From Tetradesmus obliquus (taxonomy: Eukaryota; Chlorophyta; Chlorophyceae; Sphaeropleales; Scenedesmaceae), in assembly GCA_030272155.1 (NCBI GenBank), contig CP126197.1, forward strand, positions 1,736,001 to 1,800,000: a stretch of DNA of 64,000 nucleotides, in the 5' to 3' direction. The position numbers and the translations under genes are program-made. A model generated the notes under the pieces. The model was not told where the DNA came from and searched no databases. It was given only the letters and a program-made list of their open reading frames with translations. Numbering within the stretch: the first letter of the stretch is position 1; every line of letters starts with the position of its first letter. Of the stretch, positions 1 through 17,030 are shown piece by piece.

Positions 1-392
1 CACACCAGAACTGCAGTGCCTGATCAGCCAGCAAGGGAAGCCCAGAAGTATTACATTACACATCAAAACATGTTGCAGGCAGCAGCACCCACAGCAACAC
101 TCTACAGCGCAAGTTAACATATGTAACAGTCGAGTCGGGGCACTTCAGGGCAACGTGTTTTTAGCTCTTTTCTTGCAGTACACTGTGCCACTGCTAACAG
201 CTCAAATTGATTTAGGTTCGTCGTTGAAAGCTTGACATTTATATGTAGGCCACTTGTTCGCTACGTTTGTACCATGCCCAGCTGAGACCGGTCAAACTCC
301 ATGATGCCGCAGGCTGTTGTTTGACCTGACCAGTTACTTCTGTTCACACTGCTGCTAGAAGCACAGCTAACATATCCATACGTTTTGGATTC

Positions 393-2596
393 ATGCCTGC
401 AGGGGGGCTGTCCATGGTGCGCAAGCACCCTTCAGGATGGAAGAGCAACCGCAGCACCACGGCCATGAGGGTGGCGGCGGTGGTGTGTGTGATAATGGCT
501 TTGACCACAGCTGACGAAAAGTTTACGCCCGCATATTATTACAGAGAGCAGTACCCTGACTACGCCAAGGAGGTACACGGGGACCTGAACCGGTTCTGCA
601 AACTTCATCACAAGAACTTCACAGCAAACGGCACAGTGGCTACACCCAAGCATGGCGGCAGGCCCTCAAATGTCCCACATGCTGTCGCCTTCCATGCCAG
701 CACAATATTCAAGGCTGGCAAGGTGGTAAAGGCCTACCCATCGGCAGATTCAAAGAGAAAGGTTGATGTGCACGTGTGGTGGACTTCAATCGAAGTCGCA
801 TGTCAGGAAAATGACACACTGCGCCAGCTGTGCACTGACTACAACATCACACCCAAGAGACTGCTGAAGTACATGAAATGGGCTGACCCCGACCTGGTGC
901 GCAGGAGAATAGATGTGAAGCTGGACTTGACAAAGATACAGAAACAAAGGCGAAAGGCAGCAGCTGCGGCGCTGTGGCAGAAGTACCAAAGTGACCCCGA
1001 CATGCTGCAGCGCATATATTTCGTTGATGAGTGCAAATTCTGGATGTCAGACCTGGCAGGCGGCTCCGTCAAGGTCTATTGTGATGCACACGATGAAAAC
1101 GTGCATGCTGTGCTGCCATGCAAATGGATGCGCAAGGGCAAGGACGCAGAGCCGGTCAAGTTGCACTTTGTCTGCGCCGTCAACGCTGTGCACGGGCCCG
1201 TCTACTGCAAGTTTGTCACCGGCACAACAGACAACAAGGACCATGCTGGCAACCTCAATGTACCGTACATGGTGAGTGTGCGCTGCTACTGCGCAGGCGC
1301 CTGCCATCGAAAGACATGCCAGCCCTGCTGTACTGTGTAGTAACAGTCCCGCAGTGCTTTTTTTAGTGCTGTAGTGAAGCTGCAGCGCTGCCCGTCCTCT
1401 GCTGTGAACATAACAGCAGAGTAACTTGGTGACAGTACAATGACACCACCTGCAGCAGCAAGCTGGAAACCAATGTGCAAGGATTGGTGCATGTCACATC
1501 CGCGCGTGCTCACGCGCAGCACACTGCCCCCTGGCTGCAGCCAGTTGTCATATGCTGCAGCGCAGAACTCAAAGTCGCGCTCCAGCACCTGCTGCCTGCT
1601 GCTGCTGTAATAACCCTTGTCATGACATGAGCCATCAGCTTGAATCAGCATGTTGTGCTGTGCATGGAGGAAATTAATCCGCCCATCCCACCAGTCCACT
1701 GCTACCTGAGCACACATACTGCTGCTGATGCCTAACCAATACAGCATGCACACCAGCTGCTCCTCGCTTGTGTGCATGTAGCCCATGCATGTGCCAACCA
1801 TATCAGCCAGCACACATGCACACATCTTGCACTGAAGCGCTGCTGCTGTGGCGACTGCACGCGGCGCGCAGAACTTGAAGTGCTGCACACCTGGCAAGCA
1901 GCCAGTCAAGCCCCAGAACAATCTCTGCCCCCTCATAGACTTGGTGATGTATCTGACCTTGTCTGCACTGAGCCTGATGTAGAAGCGTCCCATCGCATCC
2001 ATCCACACCGCTGCGTTGCGCTCCTGCGCTGCTAACAAGGCTGCGCGCTGCCAATCCGGCAATTCTTGCACCTGCAGTTGAAGGACAAACCAACCCAGCA
2101 GGCCAAGAGCATGACTCAGCTGGAGTTTGTTCACTGCATGATGGAGATCAAAGACATAGCCAACCAACAGCAGGCGCAGCGCGGCACTACGCCGCTGTAC
2201 ATCTTTGACAACCCAAGTGTTCACCTGGGGAAGGATGGCCTACAGATGTTGGTTGCAGGTGGCATCAATGAAGATCAACTGCTGCACATTGCACCCTACT
2301 CCCCAGATTTCAACAAGCCCATTGAACATGCATTTGGCAGCCTCAAAGCAGCCTTCCGCAACTACTTGTATAACAGCTGCCAGCTGGGTGGTGCTGATGT
2401 GAAGCCGCGAGACCTGCAGCACGGCCTGTACAACACCTTTATGAAGATCACAGCTGCATCTGTCATGGCTGATGTATTGAAGCTGCCAGATTTGTGGAAC
2501 ATGGTGCGCAGCCGCAAGAGGAGTCTTTGTGTGTGCCGAGACGGGAAGCAGCGCCGCGGCACTGCTGGCGACTACCCCAGGAAAGACCAGCGCTGA
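393..2596 (+). CDS. Tc1/mariner-IS630-like DDE transposase, copy 1, two exons
   Basis: Cut-and-paste transposase of the Tc1/mariner-IS630 superfamily. Exon 1 is 393-1271 and exon 2 is 2078-2596. The intron starts GTGAGT, ends CTGCAG, and keeps phase 0, giving 465 residues. The N-terminal part is basic and probably binds DNA, with a region like a helix-turn-helix around residues 140-200. The catalytic triad is visible: D212 in YFVDECKF, D337 in YIFDNPSVH, and E376 in SPDFNKPIEHAFG, the last resembling the Tc1 signature SPDLNPIE. The second D and the E are 38 residues apart (DD38E). The frame is intact in both full copies, so the element may be active or was until recently. The ATG at 393 is the first in frame; ATGs at codons 8 and 25 are alternatives. 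The oddity is the intron, which is nearly filled by an antisense ORF. Confidence 0.85.
1272..2077 (+). other. Transposase intron (806 bp) hosting an antisense ORF
   Basis: The donor is G|GTGAGTG after residue 293 of the transposase and the acceptor is TTGCACCTGCAG. Removing it joins the first catalytic D to the second D and E in one frame. The minus strand is open without a stop from 2224 down to the stop at 1286-1288, so 792 of the 806 intron bases lie inside that ORF. The same arrangement recurs at 5554-6359 in the second copy. Splicing is inferred from sequence only. Confidence 0.75.
1286..2002 (-). CDS. Vsr/DUF559-like PD-(D/E)XK nuclease candidate in the intron, copy 1
   Basis: The frame is open from 2224, but its first 49 codons are antisense to transposase exon 2. 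The first ATG inside the intron, at 2002, gives 238 residues. With that start, D106 lies in WWDGRINF, then MLIQADGSCH carries Q121, D123 and H127, followed by R136, D143 in LERDFEF, and a VLRVST strand with R163. This D-x14-(E/Q)-x-D-G-x-x-H then R, D and VLR order is the core of Vsr-like, DUF559 and EDxHD nicking or homing nucleases, with Q at the usual first acidic position. A Cys-rich stretch (FKFCAP, QCKMCAC) upstream might bind zinc. Family membership is motif reading only. An ORF conserved by chance opposite the intron is unlikely given its length and motif order, but both copies are identical and so give no independent support. Confidence 0.55.
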   Translation of the reverse strand: MDAMGRFYIRLSADKVRYITKSMRGQRLFWGLTGCLPGVQHFKFCAPRAVATAAALQCKMCACVLADMVGTCMGYMHTSEEQLVCMLYWLGISSSMCAQVAVDWWDGRINFLHAQHNMLIQADGSCHDKGYYSSSRQQVLERDFEFCAAAYDNWLQPGGSVLRVSTRGCDMHQSLHIGFQLAAAGGVIVLSPSYSAVMFTAEDGQRCSFTTALKKALRDCYYTVQQGWHVFRWQAPAQ

Positions 2597-4674
2597 GTCT
2601 GCTGTTGTGCTGCTGCATGGCATGTAGGGATTGTGGCTGTCAGCTGCATGCAAGATGGCTGGCCAGCAGTGCACAGGGTGTCACTCAGAGAGCCCTTGAG
2701 CTCACCTGTTTGAGGGCACCTGCGCTTGTCGCCGTCCTGCATGTTCGCACCGCCCGGGGCTTGGGAGGTGCTGGCACCATGCTGCTGTAGGGTGGTTACT
2801 TCCTGGTGTTCACCTGAGAGCGAGTGTGGGAACAAAATGGCATGTTCAGAAGCTTATTGTATGAGTAAACTACATGTGGATGTTGTGCTTTGGTGCTCAG
2901 ACTTGTCAGGAGCGGTTCCTGCTTCAAACGACTGCTGCAAGGCAGCAAGGCACTTGGTGGCCATTTCACATACAGGCATTTGCAGTCATGCTGAATTGCC
3001 GAATGTAATGGTAAAATTCCTGTCATAATTCAACTACGCTCGAAGCTCTTGAACATGGCTCCTGCTGCTGTCACTCGCGTTGGTTGTGACGACTGTTGGC
3101 CTGCCAAGCGATATGCACGGAGCCTGCAAGAAACCTTGCGGTCGATTAACTTTTAAATTTGATGATTGATTTAAGCATGGCTTGAGCCGAAATAAACTGC
3201 GATATGGTGAAGAACTTCAAGACGGAAAGGTGCCCTGAAACAAGCCTGCTCCGAGCCACACAGCTGCCACGCTGCCAACTTATCATCGTCGACACATTAT
3301 GCAACGTACCTTTGGTTAAAGCAGAAAACCAATCCTGACGGGCCCTCGCAAGCCCACGTTGCAGGTGAGCCTGACGGGTCAACACGGATGTCCAGAGCAC
3401 TGCAGCTCGATCGCGCTGCTGCAGCACCTGCATACAATTTGTTTTGAACATTGAACGACGTTAAACACAGCGCAGTGCTGAAAGGCTTCGCCAAAAAATT
3501 AGGTGGCAGCAGTGAGGCACCTGCTGGCACATGCTGCTGCTGTCACGCCCACCAACAACTGCAGTTGAAAAACACATGCCACCGTGATTCACAGCACACA
3601 TAGCTGTAACGTTTCCTGTTGTCTGCTGCTGCTGCTGCTCCTGCCCAGGCAGATATCATATATTGCAAACAGTGCTACTGCCGCAGTAAAATCAGCTGCA
3701 TACCCAGCAGCAGCAGGAGCACATCAGCCATAGCATAAAAAGGTAGGTGTGCACTTCAGGCACCAAGTCCAGGAACAGCAACAGAAGGGATGCAGTGCAG
3801 GCTAAGAACTGCTGCAGCAAAGGCTGGCATGCAATCACAGTCTCAGCTGGGTATGGTACAAACGTAGCATCTGCATTTTGCAACAAATCAACACAGCTTG
3901 CAAGCAGACAGCCATGCTGGCATAGCAACCTGCTGTATGTGGCAGGCACAGTAAGGCACAGCTGCCAGTGCTGCTGCTTTGGTTTGCTTGCATCCCAACT
4001 GCACAGCAGGGCCCCCACCTGCCAGCAGCAGCAGCTTCAAACTGCTAGTAATTTTGAGCTCCAGAATTCGCCTTGATCACACAAGAAGGATGTTTGCAGG
4101 AAACTGTGTAGAATACTAGTCCTCAACAAACTCTGTGCAGCCACACTAGCTGCACGCGCGCAGCAGCTGCCGGTGGGCCTGAAGCGGTGTTGCGCAGTAT
4201 GTCACAGATATGACAGTTGAAACTGTATGTGCAGCGCACAGCGCCAAGCAGCAGAGCGCAACAGCAGCGGCAGGGCACTTGGCACACCAGAACTGCAGTG
4301 CCTGATCAGCCAGCAAGGGAAGCCCAGAAGTATTACATTACACATCAAAACATGTTGCAGGCAGCAGCACCCACAGCAACACTCTACAGCGCAAGTTAAC
4401 ATATGTAACAGTCGAGTCGGGGCACTTCAGGGCAACGTGTTTTTAGCTCTTTTCTTGCAGTACACTGTGCCACTGCTAACAGCTCAAATTGATTTAGGTT
4501 CGTCGTTGAAAGCTTGACATTTATATGTAGGCCACTTGTTCGCTACGTTTGTACCATGCCCAGCTGAGACCGGTCAAACTCCATGATGCCGCAGGCTGTT
4601 GTTTGACCTGACCAGTTACTTCTGTTCACACTGCTGCTAGAAGCACAGCTAACATATCCATACGTTTTGGATTC
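2597..4674. other. Non-coding remainder of the repeat unit
   Basis: About 2 kb between the transposase stop and the next transposase start, repeated at 6879-8848. It holds only short overlapping ORFs without recognisable motifs, a small CTG run near 3627, and scattered AT-rich stretches. It must contain the element's ends and the promoter of the next copy, but I could not delimit either. Confidence 0.6.
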
Positions 4675-6878
4675 ATGCCTGCAGGGGGGCTGTCCATGGT
4701 GCGCAAGCACCCTTCAGGATGGAAGAGCAACCGCAGCACCACGGCCATGAGGGTGGCGGCGGTGGTGTGTGTGATAATGGCTTTGACCACAGCTGACGAA
4801 AAGTTTACGCCCGCATATTATTACAGAGAGCAGTACCCTGACTACGCCAAGGAGGTACACGGGGACCTGAACCGGTTCTGCAAACTTCATCACAAGAACT
4901 TCACAGCAAACGGCACAGTGGCTACACCCAAGCATGGCGGCAGGCCCTCAAATGTCCCACATGCTGTCGCCTTCCATGCCAGCACAATATTCAAGGCTGG
5001 CAAGGTGGTAAAGGCCTACCCATCGGCAGATTCAAAGAGAAAGGTTGATGTGCACGTGTGGTGGACTTCAATCGAAGTCGCATGTCAGGAAAATGACACA
5101 CTGCGCCAGCTGTGCACTGACTACAACATCACACCCAAGAGACTGCTGAAGTACATGAAATGGGCTGACCCCGACCTGGTGCGCAGGAGAATAGATGTGA
5201 AGCTGGACTTGACAAAGATACAGAAACAAAGGCGAAAGGCAGCAGCTGCGGCGCTGTGGCAGAAGTACCAAAGTGACCCCGACATGCTGCAGCGCATATA
5301 TTTCGTTGATGAGTGCAAATTCTGGATGTCAGACCTGGCAGGCGGCTCCGTCAAGGTCTATTGTGATGCACACGATGAAAACGTGCATGCTGTGCTGCCA
5401 TGCAAATGGATGCGCAAGGGCAAGGACGCAGAGCCGGTCAAGTTGCACTTTGTCTGCGCCGTCAACGCTGTGCACGGGCCCGTCTACTGCAAGTTTGTCA
5501 CCGGCACAACAGACAACAAGGACCATGCTGGCAACCTCAATGTACCGTACATGGTGAGTGTGCGCTGCTACTGCGCAGGCGCCTGCCATCGAAAGACATG
5601 CCAGCCCTGCTGTACTGTGTAGTAACAGTCCCGCAGTGCTTTTTTTAGTGCTGTAGTGAAGCTGCAGCGCTGCCCGTCCTCTGCTGTGAACATAACAGCA
5701 GAGTAACTTGGTGACAGTACAATGACACCACCTGCAGCAGCAAGCTGGAAACCAATGTGCAAGGATTGGTGCATGTCACATCCGCGCGTGCTCACGCGCA
5801 GCACACTGCCCCCTGGCTGCAGCCAGTTGTCATATGCTGCAGCGCAGAACTCAAAGTCGCGCTCCAGCACCTGCTGCCTGCTGCTGCTGTAATAACCCTT
5901 GTCATGACATGAGCCATCAGCTTGAATCAGCATGTTGTGCTGTGCATGGAGGAAATTAATCCGCCCATCCCACCAGTCCACTGCTACCTGAGCACACATA
6001 CTGCTGCTGATGCCTAACCAATACAGCATGCACACCAGCTGCTCCTCGCTTGTGTGCATGTAGCCCATGCATGTGCCAACCATATCAGCCAGCACACATG
6101 CACACATCTTGCACTGAAGCGCTGCTGCTGTGGCGACTGCACGCGGCGCGCAGAACTTGAAGTGCTGCACACCTGGCAAGCAGCCAGTCAAGCCCCAGAA
6201 CAATCTCTGCCCCCTCATAGACTTGGTGATGTATCTGACCTTGTCTGCACTGAGCCTGATGTAGAAGCGTCCCATCGCATCCATCCACACCGCTGCGTTG
6301 CGCTCCTGCGCTGCTAACAAGGCTGCGCGCTGCCAATCCGGCAATTCTTGCACCTGCAGTTGAAGGACAAACCAACCCAGCAGGCCAAGAGCATGACTCA
6401 GCTGGAGTTTGTTCACTGCATGATGGAGATCAAAGACATAGCCAACCAACAGCAGGCGCAGCGCGGCACTACGCCGCTGTACATCTTTGACAACCCAAGT
6501 GTTCACCTGGGGAAGGATGGCCTACAGATGTTGGTTGCAGGTGGCATCAATGAAGATCAACTGCTGCACATTGCACCCTACTCCCCAGATTTCAACAAGC
6601 CCATTGAACATGCATTTGGCAGCCTCAAAGCAGCCTTCCGCAACTACTTGTATAACAGCTGCCAGCTGGGTGGTGCTGATGTGAAGCCGCGAGACCTGCA
6701 GCACGGCCTGTACAACACCTTTATGAAGATCACAGCTGCATCTGTCATGGCTGATGTATTGAAGCTGCCAGATTTGTGGAACATGGTGCGCAGCCGCAAG
6801 AGGAGTCTTTGTGTGTGCCGAGACGGGAAGCAGCGCCGCGGCACTGCTGGCGACTACCCCAGGAAAGACCAGCGCTGA
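4675..6878 (+). CDS. Tc1/mariner-IS630-like DDE transposase, copy 2
   Basis: The second unit of the array. Exon 1 is 4675-5553, the intron 5554-6359 and exon 2 6360-6878. The predicted 465-residue protein is the same as copy 1, including the DD38E triad. Both copies keep an uninterrupted frame, so neither shows decay. Confidence 0.85.
5568..6284 (-). CDS. Vsr/DUF559-like nuclease candidate in the intron, copy 2
   Basis: An identical copy of the antisense intron ORF, 4282 bases downstream of the first. It has the same 238-residue reading from the first intronic ATG and the same ADGSCH core. It keeps its frame, which is expected of so recent a duplicate and is not by itself evidence of selection. 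Confidence 0.55.
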   Translation of the reverse strand: MDAMGRFYIRLSADKVRYITKSMRGQRLFWGLTGCLPGVQHFKFCAPRAVATAAALQCKMCACVLADMVGTCMGYMHTSEEQLVCMLYWLGISSSMCAQVAVDWWDGRINFLHAQHNMLIQADGSCHDKGYYSSSRQQVLERDFEFCAAAYDNWLQPGGSVLRVSTRGCDMHQSLHIGFQLAAAGGVIVLSPSYSAVMFTAEDGQRCSFTTALKKALRDCYYTVQQGWHVFRWQAPAQ

Positions 6879-8848
6879 GTCTGCTGTTGTGCTGCTGCAT
6901 GGCATGTAGGGATTGTGGCTGTCAGCTGCATGCAAGATGGCTGGCCAGCAGTGCACAGGGTGTCACTCAGAGAGCCCTTGAGCTCACCTGTTTGAGGGCA
7001 CCTGCGCTTGTCGCCGTCCTGCATGTTCGCACCGCCCGGGGCTTGGGAGGTGCTGGCACCATGCTGCTGTAGGGTGGTTACTTCCTGGTGTTCACCTGAG
7101 AGCGAGTGTGGGAACAAAATGGCATGTTCAGAAGCTTATTGTATGAGTAAACTACATGTGGATGTTGTGCTTTGGTGCTCAGACTTGTCAGGAGCGGTTC
7201 CTGCTTCAAACGACTGCTGCAAGGCAGCAAGGCACTTGGTGGCCATTTCACATACAGGCATTTGCAGTCATGCTGAATTGCCGAATGTAATGGTAAAATT
7301 CCTGTCATAATTCAACTACGCTCGAAGCTCTTGAACATGGCTCCTGCTGCTGTCACTCGCGTTGGTTGTGACGACTGTTGGCCTGCCAAGCGATATGCAC
7401 GGAGCCTGCAAGAAACCTTGCGGTCGATTAACTTTTAAATTTGATGATTGATTTAAGCATGGCTTGAGCCGAAATAAACTGCGATATGGTGAAGAACTTC
7501 AAGACGGAAAGGTGCCCTGAAACAAGCCTGCTCCGAGCCACACAGCTGCCACGCTGCCAACTTATCATCGTCGACACATTATGCAACGTACCTTTGGTTA
7601 AAGCAGAAAACCAATCCTGACGGGCCCTCGCAAGCCCACGTTGCAGGTGAGCCTGACGGGTCAACACGGATGTCCAGAGCACTGCAGCTCGATCGCGCTG
7701 CTGCAGCACCTGCATACAATTTGTTTTGAACATTGAACGACGTTAAACACAGCGCAGTGCTGAAAGGCTTCGCCAAAAAATTAGGTGGCAGCAGTGAGGC
7801 ACCTGCTGGCACATGCTGCTGCTGTCACGCCCACCAACAACTGCAGTTGAAAAACACATGCCACCGTGATTCACAGCACACATAGCTGTAACGTTTCCTG
7901 TTGTCTGCTGCTGCTGCTGCTCCTGCCCAGGCAGATATCATATATTGCAAACAGTGCTACTGCCGCAGTAAAATCAGCTGCATACCCAGCAGCAGCAGGA
8001 GCACATCAGCCATAGCATAAAAAGGTAGGTGTGCACTTCAGGCACCAAGTCCAGGAACAGCAACAGAAGGGATGCAGTGCAGGCTAAGAACTGCTGCAGC
8101 AAAGGCTGGCATGCAATCACAGTCTCAGCTGGGTATGGTACAAACGTAGCATCTGCATTTTGCAACAAATCAACACAGCTTGCAAGCAGACAGCCATGCT
8201 GGCATAGCAACCTGCTGTATGTGGCAGGCACAGTAAGGCACAGCTGCCAGTGCTGCTGCTTTGGTTTGCTTGCATCCCAACTGCACAGCAGGGCCCCCAC
8301 CTGCCAGCAGCAGCAGCTTCAAACTGCTAGTAATTTTGAGCTCCAGAATTCGCCTTGATCACACAAGAAGGATGTTTGCAGGAAACTGTGTAGAATACTA
8401 GTCCTCAACAAACTCTGTGCAGCCACACTAGCTGCACGCGCGCAGCAGCTGCCGGTGGGCCTGAAGCGGTGTTGCGCAGTATGTCACAGATATGACAGTT
8501 GAAACTGTATGTGCAGCGCACAGCGCCAAGCAGCAGAGCGCAACAGCAGCGGCAGGGCACTTGGCACACCAGAACTGCAGTGCCTGATCAGCCAGCAAGG
8601 GAAGCCCAGAAGTATTACATTACACATCAAAACATGTTGCAGGCAGCAGCACCCACAGCAACACTCTACAGCGCAAGTTAACATATGTAACAGTCGAGTC
8701 GGGGCACTTCAGGGCAACGTGTTTTTAGCTCTTTTCTTGCAGTACACTGTGCCACTGCTAACAGCTCAAATTGATTTAGGTTCGTCGTTGAAAGCTTGAC
8801 ATTTATATGTAGGCCACTTGTTCGCTACGTTTGTACCATGCCCAGCTG

Positions 8849-9056
8849 GACACTGATCCTGAGGTTATTTTGTCCTCTCATGCTATTGCTCAAGCTATTG
8901 ATGACGCTGAGGAGTTCTTTTCTGCGGTTTCTTCTGGCGGTTTGGACGATGATGAGTTTTTCTTCGATGTTTCCTCCCCCTATGAGCCTCTCGTTGGCTC
9001 CTGACTGGGGTTCCCACTCCTCGTTGAGTGGAGCATGTAATGTAATGTAATGTAAT
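8849..9056 (+). mobile_element. 5'-truncated LINE-like 3' end with TGTAA-type tail
   Basis: Right after the array breaks off, a frame runs from 8846 to a stop near 9004 and encodes an acidic, Phe-rich tail (DDAEEFFSAVSSG, then DDDEFFFDVSS). Its T-rich third positions are unlike the GC-rich genes around it. About 30 bases after the stop come four tandem GTAAT/TGTAA units (about 9033-9056). A short 3' UTR ending in a simple pentanucleotide tail is typical of LINEs in green algae. The fragment is probably a LINE truncated at its 5' end, but no reverse transcriptase remains to prove the family. A short ATTAC run at 58987-59008 could be a reverse-oriented remnant of a similar tail. Confidence 0.4.
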
Positions 9057-9640: not shown

Positions 9641-9647
9641 GCAGCCC

Positions 9648-10255
9648 CAACAGCCAGCTCACACCAGCAGCCAGCCCACACCAGCAGCCAGCCCACACCA
9701 GCAGCCAGCTCACACCAGCAGCCAGCTCACACCAGCAGCCAGCTCACACCAGCAGCCAGCTCACACCAGCAGCCAGCTCACACCAGCAGCCAGCTCACAC
9801 CAGCAGCCAGCTCACACCAGCAGCCAGCTCACACCACCAGCCAGCTCACACCACCAGCCAGCTCACACCACCAGCCAGCTCACACCAGCAGCCAGCTCAC
9901 ACCAGCAGCCAGCCCACACCAGCAGCCAGCTCACACCAGCAGCCAGCTCACACCACCAGCCAGCCCACACCACCAGCCAGCTCACACCACCAGCCAGCTC
10001 ACACCACCAGCCAGCTCACACCAGCAGCCAGCTCACACCAGCAGCCAGCCCACACCAGCAGCCAGCCCACACCAGCAGCCAGCCCACACCACCAGCCAGC
10101 TCACACCAGCAGCCAGCTCACACCAGCAGCCAGGTCACACCAGCAGCCAGCTCACACCAGCAGCCAGCTCACACCAGCAGCCAGCTCACACCAGCAGCCA
10201 GACCACAGCAGCAGCCAGCTCACACCAGCAGCCAGCTCACACCAGAAGCTGGACA
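9648..10255. repeat. 17-bp minisatellite, about 35 copies
   Basis: The unit is AGCTCACACCAGCAGCC, with common variants in which CAGCAG becomes CACCAG or AGCTC becomes AGCCC. Because 17 is not a multiple of three, all three frames stay open and give the same Gln-Pro-Ala-His-Thr-Ser-Ser pattern, so the long ORFs here are by-products. It lies directly beyond the stop codon of the Hsp70-like gene and may be transcribed in its 3' UTR. Confidence 0.95.
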
Positions 10256-14800: not shown

Positions 14801-15665
14801 TCGCCGCTGCTGCTGTCATACTTCTGCACCGCGGAGTCTAGCGCAGCAGCGGAGCACGCACGATAGTCGCGTGTGCAGCCGTCAGGCGCAGCCAGCGCAA
14901 TGACAGGTATGCACGAGTAACGCCGCAGCCCGTGCACACTGGACAGCAGCTTGTCCATGAACAAGGCGTAGATGTCTGACATCTTGATGATGAGCGGCAC
15001 GCCCCGGAACATGACTGCAGCAGAATGACGGTCGGCAGCACAACGGGAACAGTGCGAGCGTCAGGCTTGCACTAGCTAGCTGCAGATGTGAGTGCACTCA
15101 ACATGCAGCCCACCAGGTGCTTCACCACTTGTGAGTGTTGTGTCCAACATGTGTCGCTGGCTGTTACCACATAGTGCCACTATGCTACTGCTGCCGTCAT
15201 AATGCTGAAACAACTCGAAGGAATGCGTCTGTGATATTTGAACACACACACAGCATTCCCATGTCAGCAGGGCCATGGCCAGGCTGATGGCCAGGCTGAG
15301 CTGCCTTGGCACAACCACCTACCTTTGATTGCCACGTAGCCGTCGCTGTCCGCAGCAGCCTCCCCGCTGGCCAATGCAAAGCCGATGTCCTCCATGACCT
15401 TGCGCGAGCCCGCAGCAGAAGCCTTCAGGTGGAACGCCCGCTTGGCGTCTGTCACCACAGCCTGCAGTATGCAGCAGAACCACAGTTGCCAAGAGCTGCA
15501 TGCCATCTGCAGAAAGCGCCTGAAATGGTCTTGTTGCAAATAACTGTTGTCTGCTTAAAAGCAGGCGAGAGGTGTATGTACTGTTCCCCATGAGTACAAA
15601 CGGGACCAGCTGGGCAAACCCCAAGGGACACCCCTGGCACACTCTCACGGCAGGCTGCTGAATGG

Positions 15666-15745
<80 letters not shown>

Positions 15746-15845
15746 CTGGCAGGCTGGCTGGCAGGCTGGCTGGCTGGCTGGCTGGCTGGCAGGCTGGCAG
15801 GCTGGCTGGCTGGCTGGCTGGCAGGCAGGCTGGCTGGCAGGCTGG

Positions 15846-15881
<36 letters not shown>

Positions 15882-17030
15882 CTGGCTGGCTGGCAGGCTG
15901 GCTGGCTGGCTGGCAGGCAGGCAGGCTGGCTGGCTGGCTGGCAGGCAGGCTGGCTGGCAGGCAGGCTGGCTGGCTGGCTGGCAGGCAGGCAGGCAGGCTG
16001 GCTGGCTGGCTGGCAGGCAGGCTGGCAGGCAGGCAGGCAGGCAGGCAGGCAGGCTGGCTGGCTGGCTGGCTGGCTGGCAGGCTGGCTGGCTGGCTGGCAG
16101 GCTGGCAGGCAGGCAGGCAGGCAGGCAGGCTGGCAGGCTGGCTGGCTGGCTGGCAGGCTGGCAGGCAGGCTGGCTGGCTGGCTGCTGCATGTGTTGGTTT
16201 CAACAGCCTCCACGACAATGGACTGCGCCATGCCCAAGCAGCGCTCCATACATGAGCCCTACCTTGTTCCTGCCGGGGTGTGCACCATCCACCAGGTGGC
16301 TGGTCTGTGGAGCATTGGTGGGGCCTCCGCTGCGGGTGTTGTGCCCTGCGGGCCTTGTCATCAACTCCAGCTTGACGGTGCAGCTGGTCGGCACAGGGCC
16401 GTCTTGGGACCGAAAGGGGTCGCGGAACTGCACCGGCGCGGCATGTGTCTGCTGCTGGCGGCTGGACAGCAGCGTGCTGCCTTCCTCTGCACAGGCAACC
16501 TTCCTGCAGACAAGCAGCAGAACAGATCAGTCAACAAGGGGCCTGAAGGGGCGGGCTTGGGCATTGTTGTATGAAAAGACACCAAATGAAAGCAGCATTT
16601 GCGATGATACAAGGCAAGTTGCAACTGCACTGTTACAATAAGGACGGTTACCAAGGGCGCCATCACTGATAGCGGTCTGAGACCAGTGACGACATGTCGA
16701 CTTTGCCATGCAAGCGTAGGCTAGGTATCTAACCGTCAAAGTTAAGGCTCCAGCTGATCATGTGACATTATGTTGTTATGCTGTCTTCAAGACAGCAAGT
16801 GGCTTCGTCATGACCATGACAGTTGCAACAGCGCTGTTGGCTAGCCATGGTCACGTGACCAGAGAGTGCACTCTCTGGCAAGCACTGAGCGTCGAAAGCA
16901 CTCACTTGGCGCTGGAGCCCAGATCAAACCCAGGTATGGCCCAGGTCTTGGTCACATCTGCGCCGTCTTTTGCAGCAGCAGCCAAGGCGCCTCTGCTCAC
17001 TGTGAGCCCGCCAGGCGCTGGCAGCGCCAT
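10277..17030 (-). CDS. Diverged Hsp70-like ATPase with Ala/Pro-rich tail, ten exons
   Basis: Exons: 17030-16906, 16503-16263, 15461-15323, 15014-14777, 14445-14342, 13759-13548, 13256-13089, 12817-12711, 12274-12097 and 11770-10277. All phases agree, giving 1001 residues. The Hsp70/actin fold is read from phosphate-1 GFDLGSSA (34-41), phosphate-2 IIDVGHST (279-286), the adenosine motif LFLTGGGGMIP, and VVAMGAAELG, which matches the Hsp70 AVAYGAA segment. In canonical Hsp70s the second phosphate loop is DLGGGT; here one Gly is His. About 130 residues of unfamiliar sequence sit after phosphate-1. Past residue 504 no Hsp70 substrate-binding domain is recognisable; instead there is a globular part, a run of AAPAAVAP repeats (about 10615-11060), and a basic KLPAKRRR end that could be a nuclear signal. 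It is probably a diverged Hsp70/Hsp110-type chaperone or co-chaperone. Substrates and location are unknown. Confidence 0.75.
10612..11048 (-). repeat. Coding Ala/Pro repeat tract (GCGCCAGCAGCTGTG-type units)
   Basis: Near-perfect 15- and 30-bp units within the last exon of the Hsp70-like gene encode alternating AAPAAVAP. They are interrupted once by a non-repetitive block (about 10870-10970). Other frames of the tract are also open and give Leu/Gln/Arg-rich shadows. Confidence 0.85.
15662..16187. repeat. AGGC/TGGC tetranucleotide tract in intron 2 of the Hsp70-like gene
   Basis: About 526 bases made only of AGGC and TGGC units, without another tetramer by eye. It starts with a pure AGGC run (15664-15746) and then alternates in blocks. 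It lies in the intron 16262-15462 of the minus-strand gene, where the transcript reads CCTG/CCAG. The long Pro-Ala-Cys-Leu ORFs across it are by-products of the repeat. Confidence 0.95.

Follow-up and report, generated by a model that had tools for sequence, protein, structure and literature searches.

A putative IS630/Tc1-related transposon array in Tetradesmus obliquus with a DUF559-like reading frame on the opposite strand of the transposase intron

Introduction

The locus analysed here raises the question of how an open reading frame on the opposite strand comes to fill almost the whole intron of a transposase gene, and whether that frame encodes, or once encoded, a nuclease that moves the intron between transposon copies. 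The locus lies in the green alga Tetradesmus obliquus, the assembly of which (GCA_030272155.1) comprises 17 contigs and 104.66 Mb, and the analysis started from a stretch of 64,000 nt of contig CP126197.1 (positions 1,736,001–1,800,000), hereafter the window. The original prediction, made from these letters, had described a Tc1/mariner element with an antisense Vsr/DUF559-like frame in its transposase intron, and had proposed that the encoded protein may be a homing-type or helper nuclease. Judged from sequence comparisons, the observation was confirmed and the mechanism found partly supported. A nuclease-like gene lying backwards in a transposase intron would, if true, represent a natural experiment on gene capture by transposons and on the onset of homing.

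Architecture of the element and its array

Positions 1–8848 of the window form the right-hand portion of a tandem array with a period of 4282 bp, the two repeats present in the window being identical across 4566 bp. Along the plus strand, the window holds the 3′ portion of a module R (1–284, identical to 4283–4566 and 8565–8848, the array starting left of the window), a first core I (285–3843), a complete 723-bp R module (3844–4566), a second core I (4567–8125), and a terminal R (8126–8848), where the array ends and the next three bases, GAC, repeat the GAC found left of the array. With 20 further stretches read, the single-copy form was R(723)-I(3559)-R(723), ca. 5005 bp, i.e. with R on either side of the core. 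The R modules are in direct orientation, and each has its own ends inverted-repeated (24 of 25 terminal bases).

The window locus is best explained as a tandem array formed by an R-I-R DNA transposon related to IS630/Tc1, whose core I would code for a spliced DDE transposase. Of the element originally predicted, the transposase gene with its intron was retained; the element itself exceeds the gene and corresponds to R-I-R, repeated in arrays.

In the 3′ part of I (window 2600–3843) no gene was recognised, and this part showed the fastest divergence between lineages (up to 78 per kb) in most pairs compared. Just beyond the array, a minisatellite of 17-bp units (35.5 copies, window 9647–10249) and a 4-bp GGCA repeat (ca. 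130 copies, window 15664–16182) were located.

Transposase gene and intron

The transposase gene on the plus strand consists of exon 1 (414–1271, with its ATG at 414), a phase 0 GT-AG intron of spliceosomal type (1272–2077; 806 bp, GTGAGTG...CTGCAG), and exon 2 with the stop codon (2078–2596), which is an open frame and joins exon 1 in frame. A CTAAC ca. 45 nt before the acceptor is presumably the branch motif. The spliced product of 458 amino acids matched DDE_3 (E-value 5.4e-5) and IS630 transposase (E-value 1.3e-5), in each case with a score below the curated cut-off.

Compared with lineage B (L032, L030), the window copy had a transposase dS of 0.047–0.057 and a dN of 0.0065–0.0093. In the alignment of the copies, each coding site was covered by 27 to 34 rows, among which several stem from the same array and two are readings of a single unit. 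Over these rows, 65 changes were counted in the transposase, 27 of them synonymous, 36 missense and 2 stops (p = 0.004), with a synonymous excess in exon 1; the dN/dS-like ratio was 0.47, and 0.29 for changes common to at least three rows. In exon 2, read in the spliced frame, lineages A and B are separated by seven synonymous and two missense fixed differences, and this synonymous excess, suggesting constraint on exon 2 in the spliced frame, is the best evidence here for splicing of the intron. That the 806 bp are an insertion which broke the gene, and not an intron, is scarcely credible against this excess, against the consensus splice sites of the segment, and against the 163 occurrences of the exon 1/intron border within 2 mismatches (83 forward, 80 reverse, with 100 of the places listed), when no intron-less exon border was found in the genome within 3 mismatches. 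A search of window 1–9000 against Rfam (E-values up to 1) gave no match, and hence no sign of a group I ribozyme core.

No transposase relatives were confirmed in viral_contigs, and a degenerate DNA pattern for diverged transposase copies returned 0 matches. Other DDE_3 loci in the genome amounted to five distant matches, three of which were read with their surroundings; the locus on C17 has an uninterrupted 391-codon frame, too distant to date the intron. In L040 (1940–3938), an IS630-like transposase frame adjoins or lies within a reading frame that, by motif, resembles a LINE endonuclease.

Insertion sites, joints and probable array growth

Target duplications of 3 bp were present at 22 of the 23 sites read, i.e. 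11 single or near-single insertions and 12 arrays. Both ends were read for 11 single or near-single insertions, and in 10 of them the flanks were identical (GGC, AAT, GTT, GCA, ATC, GGT, CCT, TCT, AAC and AGC), the exception being L031, flanked by TAT and TCT; the insertion with CCT flanks (L013) consisted of a core and a truncated second core. All 12 arrays read at both ends had identical 3-bp flanks, GAC in the case of the window array; for the C16:0.9 array, each end was read on a different copy of a duplicated segment. Of a thirteenth array, a single end was read. As the arrays are bounded by identical 3-bp flanks, each is assigned to one insertion site, and growth in place from a single insertion would be the simplest reading, although a block may also have entered ready-made, since any block is bounded by R ends.

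One stop occurs in all ten units of the C17 array and also in a single copy inserted elsewhere on C17 (GTT versus TGT flanks), which favours growth in place. The units of one array mostly scored alike; in the C16:0.73 array two units had a TAA absent from the others, and the C16:0.9 trio of units showed slight differences. An element-bearing segment of 10,558 bp was apparently duplicated in tandem at C16:0.885-0.932 Mb (L021–L024), with three cores in one copy and one core in two copies; since core number varies among the copies of this segment, arrays can grow in place.

Many neighbouring cores followed one another at a distance of 3562 bp, without an intervening R. Module R starts with CAG and finishes with CTG, and in the loci read the R-less joint was ...CAGTCT-CTG-AGACCGG... 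at four places, with CAG in place of CTG at one (read in two overlapping loci, i.e. one distinct place). Excision by Tc1 and Sleeping Beauty leaves 3-bp joints of the CAG/CTG kind, and the ends of R together with the observed joints are as expected after Tc1-type excision of R. We infer that R modules may be cut out by Tc1-type staggered cleavage 3 nt inside their ends, and that single insertions would become arrays where they sit, with unequal exchange among directly oriented R copies as the probable route.

The R-I-R element with its 3-bp duplications, CAG/CTG joints and single-site arrays is better founded than the nuclease story treated below. In this design the excision-type joints can be read and a single target duplication bounds each array, which would make arrays born from single insertions traceable within one genome. 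The variable 3-bp duplication made by an IS630-like enzyme is open to biochemical testing.

Several irregular structures were also observed. In arrays of C3, C5 and C16 (L058, L059, L060, L061 and L062), R-bounded blocks were inverted inside the array with exact R borders, and in L033 (C6:5867600-5870700) a truncated core was fused to a reversed R piece, with a TAG in the antisense frame. One R-less spacing in the C5 array, near 1175590-1179154, was 3564 bp instead of 3562 bp, perhaps with a different joint.

The antisense reading frame and its DUF559 likeness

On the minus strand the intron is open for 792 bases (1286–2077), as had been predicted, and the frame extends further to 2239, comprising 317 codons from stop to stop (1286–2239) or 238 amino acids from the first ATG, and overlapping 162 bases of exon 2; it is open in the second core of the window too. 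The motif D-x14-Q-x-D-G-x-x-H of the original prediction was present, and the DUF559-like stretch covers ca. residues 171–242 of 317. The longest stop-free run in the intron (263 codons) was reached by 5 of 3000 dinucleotide shuffles, and among 135 further segments of 806 bp taken from the window, genes not excluded, 12 held an equally long open run. The GC content by codon position was 0.565, 0.466 and 0.641 (chi-square p = 2.7e-4), when the smallest p in 40 overlapping control windows was 0.11. The frame is probably not a chance ORF.

DUF559 was the sole Pfam family matched at E-values up to 10, in 12 of the 13 copies scanned, with a best E-value of 0.039, under the cut-off; the window copy, with Asn in place of the aligned Asp, gave no Pfam match at E-values up to 10 and no match in PHROGs, NCBIfam, PADLOC and PDB sequence searches. 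In a whole-genome search for DUF559 (PF04480, E-values up to 10), all six matches were copies of the antisense frame (E-value 2.94 each), and their score of 14.1 bits compares with a curated cut-off of 20.6, which was never reached. A profile of 11 DUF559 proteins, made with 10 of 43 matching plasmid records, gave 9.4 bits for the frame with the majority Asp and 6.2 bits for the window copy, and the DUF559 profile score was matched by none of 2000 shuffles and none of 228 window ORFs. The corresponding profile of seven Vsr proteins gave -3.6 bits, with 935 of 2000 shuffles scoring as high. Accordingly, of the Vsr/DUF559 likeness first claimed, a weak, sub-threshold DUF559 resemblance was left and the Vsr part was not supported. 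Comparison of the frame with a single YcjD or Vsr sequence was uninformative.

The order D, ExD, H of DUF559 is catalytic. In the profile alignment, the antisense frame follows the order DF, xDG, H, R of the DUF559/YcjD proteins, with DG and H kept, and differs from them in having Gln for Glu in ExDG, Asn for Asp in the window copy, and a score below the cut-off. The aligned Asp sits four residues after the D of the original motif and was present in 25 of 32 rows (one Asn unit being read twice via overlapping loci). On the strength of the weak profile match, PD-(D/E)XK-type nuclease activity may be ascribed to the frame. Relatives of the frame were not confirmed in viral_contigs or genome_contigs, nor YcjD relatives in viral_contigs, and a degenerate nuclease DNA pattern gave 57 matches versus 42 for its reversed control, which was taken as noise.

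Selection on the frame and spread of altered copies

The intron part of the antisense frame had accumulated 50 changes (8 synonymous, 40 missense, 2 stops; p = 0.19 versus the neutral mix, for which ca. 25% synonymous changes and 4% stops were expected), distributed over the codon positions as 17/19/14. The dN/dS-like ratio was 1.74, versus 0.47 for the transposase in the same copies, and the dN/dS comparison put forward with the prediction thus detected no current purifying selection on the frame, with the transposase constrained. Within the nuclease-like half (1289–1790), 31 of 36 changes were missense, 4 synonymous and 1 a stop (p = 0.079), which leans to missense excess and not to constraint; diversifying selection could give this as well as drift. 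Stops were found in the frame in 14 of the 146 copies listed, the other 132 being without stop. Broken transposases were also seen, in L029 and in L038, the only C3 unit read, and loss is therefore not one-sided.

Four insertion sites, with the duplications AAT, GGC, ACT and GAC, were occupied by the lineage in which Asn replaces the aligned Asp. Moreover, a C5 copy at 3.65 Mb, with R ends 4279 apart, had an intron one base shorter (1310 versus 1311 bases from marker to exon 2) and an open exon 2. Five exon 2 matches at C16:260-278 kb had the same 4279-bp period as this copy, and both the C5 copy and the C16 units were absent among the nuclease-frame matches listed. They probably share an antisense frameshift, caused by a 1-bp intron deletion, at two sites. 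That the element must have the nuclease in cis to move is not supported, the Asn lineage being present at four insertion sites and the 1-bp-deletion lineage probably at two, and present evidence leans against such a requirement.

Probable exchange around the intron

Along the unit, 72 fixed differences separated lineage A (nine rows) from lineage B (two rows), and only two, both intronic, fell within positions 602–2250. This tract of 1.65 kb covers the intron and extends 670 bp into exon 1 and 173 bp into exon 2. Of 777 intron sites, 2 carried a fixed difference, compared with 50 of 1244 sites in the 3′ part of I. Synonymous fixed differences were found at 1 of ca. 181 sites counted to the tract versus 10 of ca. 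119 outside (p = 5.5e-4), the sole one counted to the tract lying at its very edge (position 2251); with four-fold sites alone, the p-value for a conversion tract was 0.063. With a smaller A set, five fixed differences occurred in the tract (743, 1308, 1335, 1739 and 1750), three of which were common to B and other A copies.

Constraint could also explain the low intron divergence between A and B, and recent exchange appears to explain it better, because the changes inside the intron showed no codon bias. The extent of the tract is what co-conversion in homing would give, and it is equally compatible with ordinary gene conversion; other lineage pairs also seem to have exchanged stretches, of other extents, and ordinary gene conversion therefore suffices.

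Interpretation of the antisense frame

We give an even chance to the reading in which the R-I-R transposon array carries, in its antisense frame, a real and formerly selected DUF559-like gene of PD-(D/E)XK type. Such a gene would have been captured and lodged backwards in the transposase intron, would now drift as a passenger or act only in trans, and would have passed from one element lineage to another through gene conversion. Unlikely, though still to be taken seriously, is a chance ORF in a GC-rich and CAG-rich intron, never coding and only accidentally similar to DUF559: the neutral-like substitution pattern, the equally long open runs elsewhere in the window and the sub-cut-off score of every profile match agree with it, against which stand the few shuffles that reach the open length, the coding-like codon-position bias, and the single-family Pfam signal together with the empirical profile test. 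We give little credence to a purely regulatory role, in which antisense RNA against the transposase pre-mRNA would limit transposition and the protein be irrelevant. A minus-strand scan of 686 bases past the stop found no TGTAA, the algal poly(A) signal, which argues against this role, despite its capacity to explain an unconstrained protein and the overlap of the frame with nearly the whole intron and part of exon 2.

That the frame encodes a working homing-type or helper nuclease, which cuts intron-less or divergent copies and thereby has the intron and adjoining exon DNA copied between elements, is in our estimation improbable. The exchanged tract around the intron, the stop-free frame in most copies listed and the missense excess in the nuclease-like half point towards it, as do antisense homing genes in nuclear introns, the existence of which is documented in the accessible text of PMC9548176. 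Against it are the lack of purifying selection on the frame, the spread of the Asn lineage and the probable frameshift lineage (unless complemented in trans), the search for intron-less copies, which found none, the seeming exchange of other stretches by other lineage pairs, for which ordinary conversion is enough, and the Rfam result. A conversion tract was seen around the intron, and neither an intron-less copy nor a link of the tract to the nuclease was found. Still more doubtful, and quite a distant prospect, is the bolder form, in which an intron-resident DUF559-like nuclease homes among transposon copies, two selfish modules lie on opposite strands, and the cuts also drive array growth.

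Comparison with known systems

A close parallel to the antisense frame is I-DsqI, for which the accessible text of PMC9548176 describes an antisense homing endonuclease gene in a nuclear group I intron. In both, a nuclease or nuclease-like gene runs antisense to the intron that holds it; according to that text, I-DsqI is a His-Cys enzyme with shown activity in a self-splicing rDNA intron, whereas here the intron is of spliceosomal type and located in a transposase gene, and the frame is a putative DUF559-like nuclease gene.

The element resembles the IS630/Tc1/mariner group in its DDE transposase, with weak IS630 and DDE_3 matches, and the Tc1 type in the CAG...CTG ends and CAG/CTG 3-bp joints. 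It differs from the group in its variable 3-bp target duplication, which is not TA, and in its 723-bp direct terminal modules, intron and tandem arrays. The label Tc1/mariner thus held for the transposase homology and the footprint-like 3-bp joints, and failed for the TA duplication. The accessible text of a survey (PMC7325037) states that green algae yielded no Tc1/mariner elements. In the literature searched, mostly outside subscription journals, no paper with this layout or with an R-I-R element was recognised. The foldback transposon Tetris of Drosophila virilis (PMC4079207) reportedly gave building blocks to a satellite, and is thereby similar as a DNA transposon linked to tandem repeats; the difference is that whole coding units are arrayed in T. 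obliquus.
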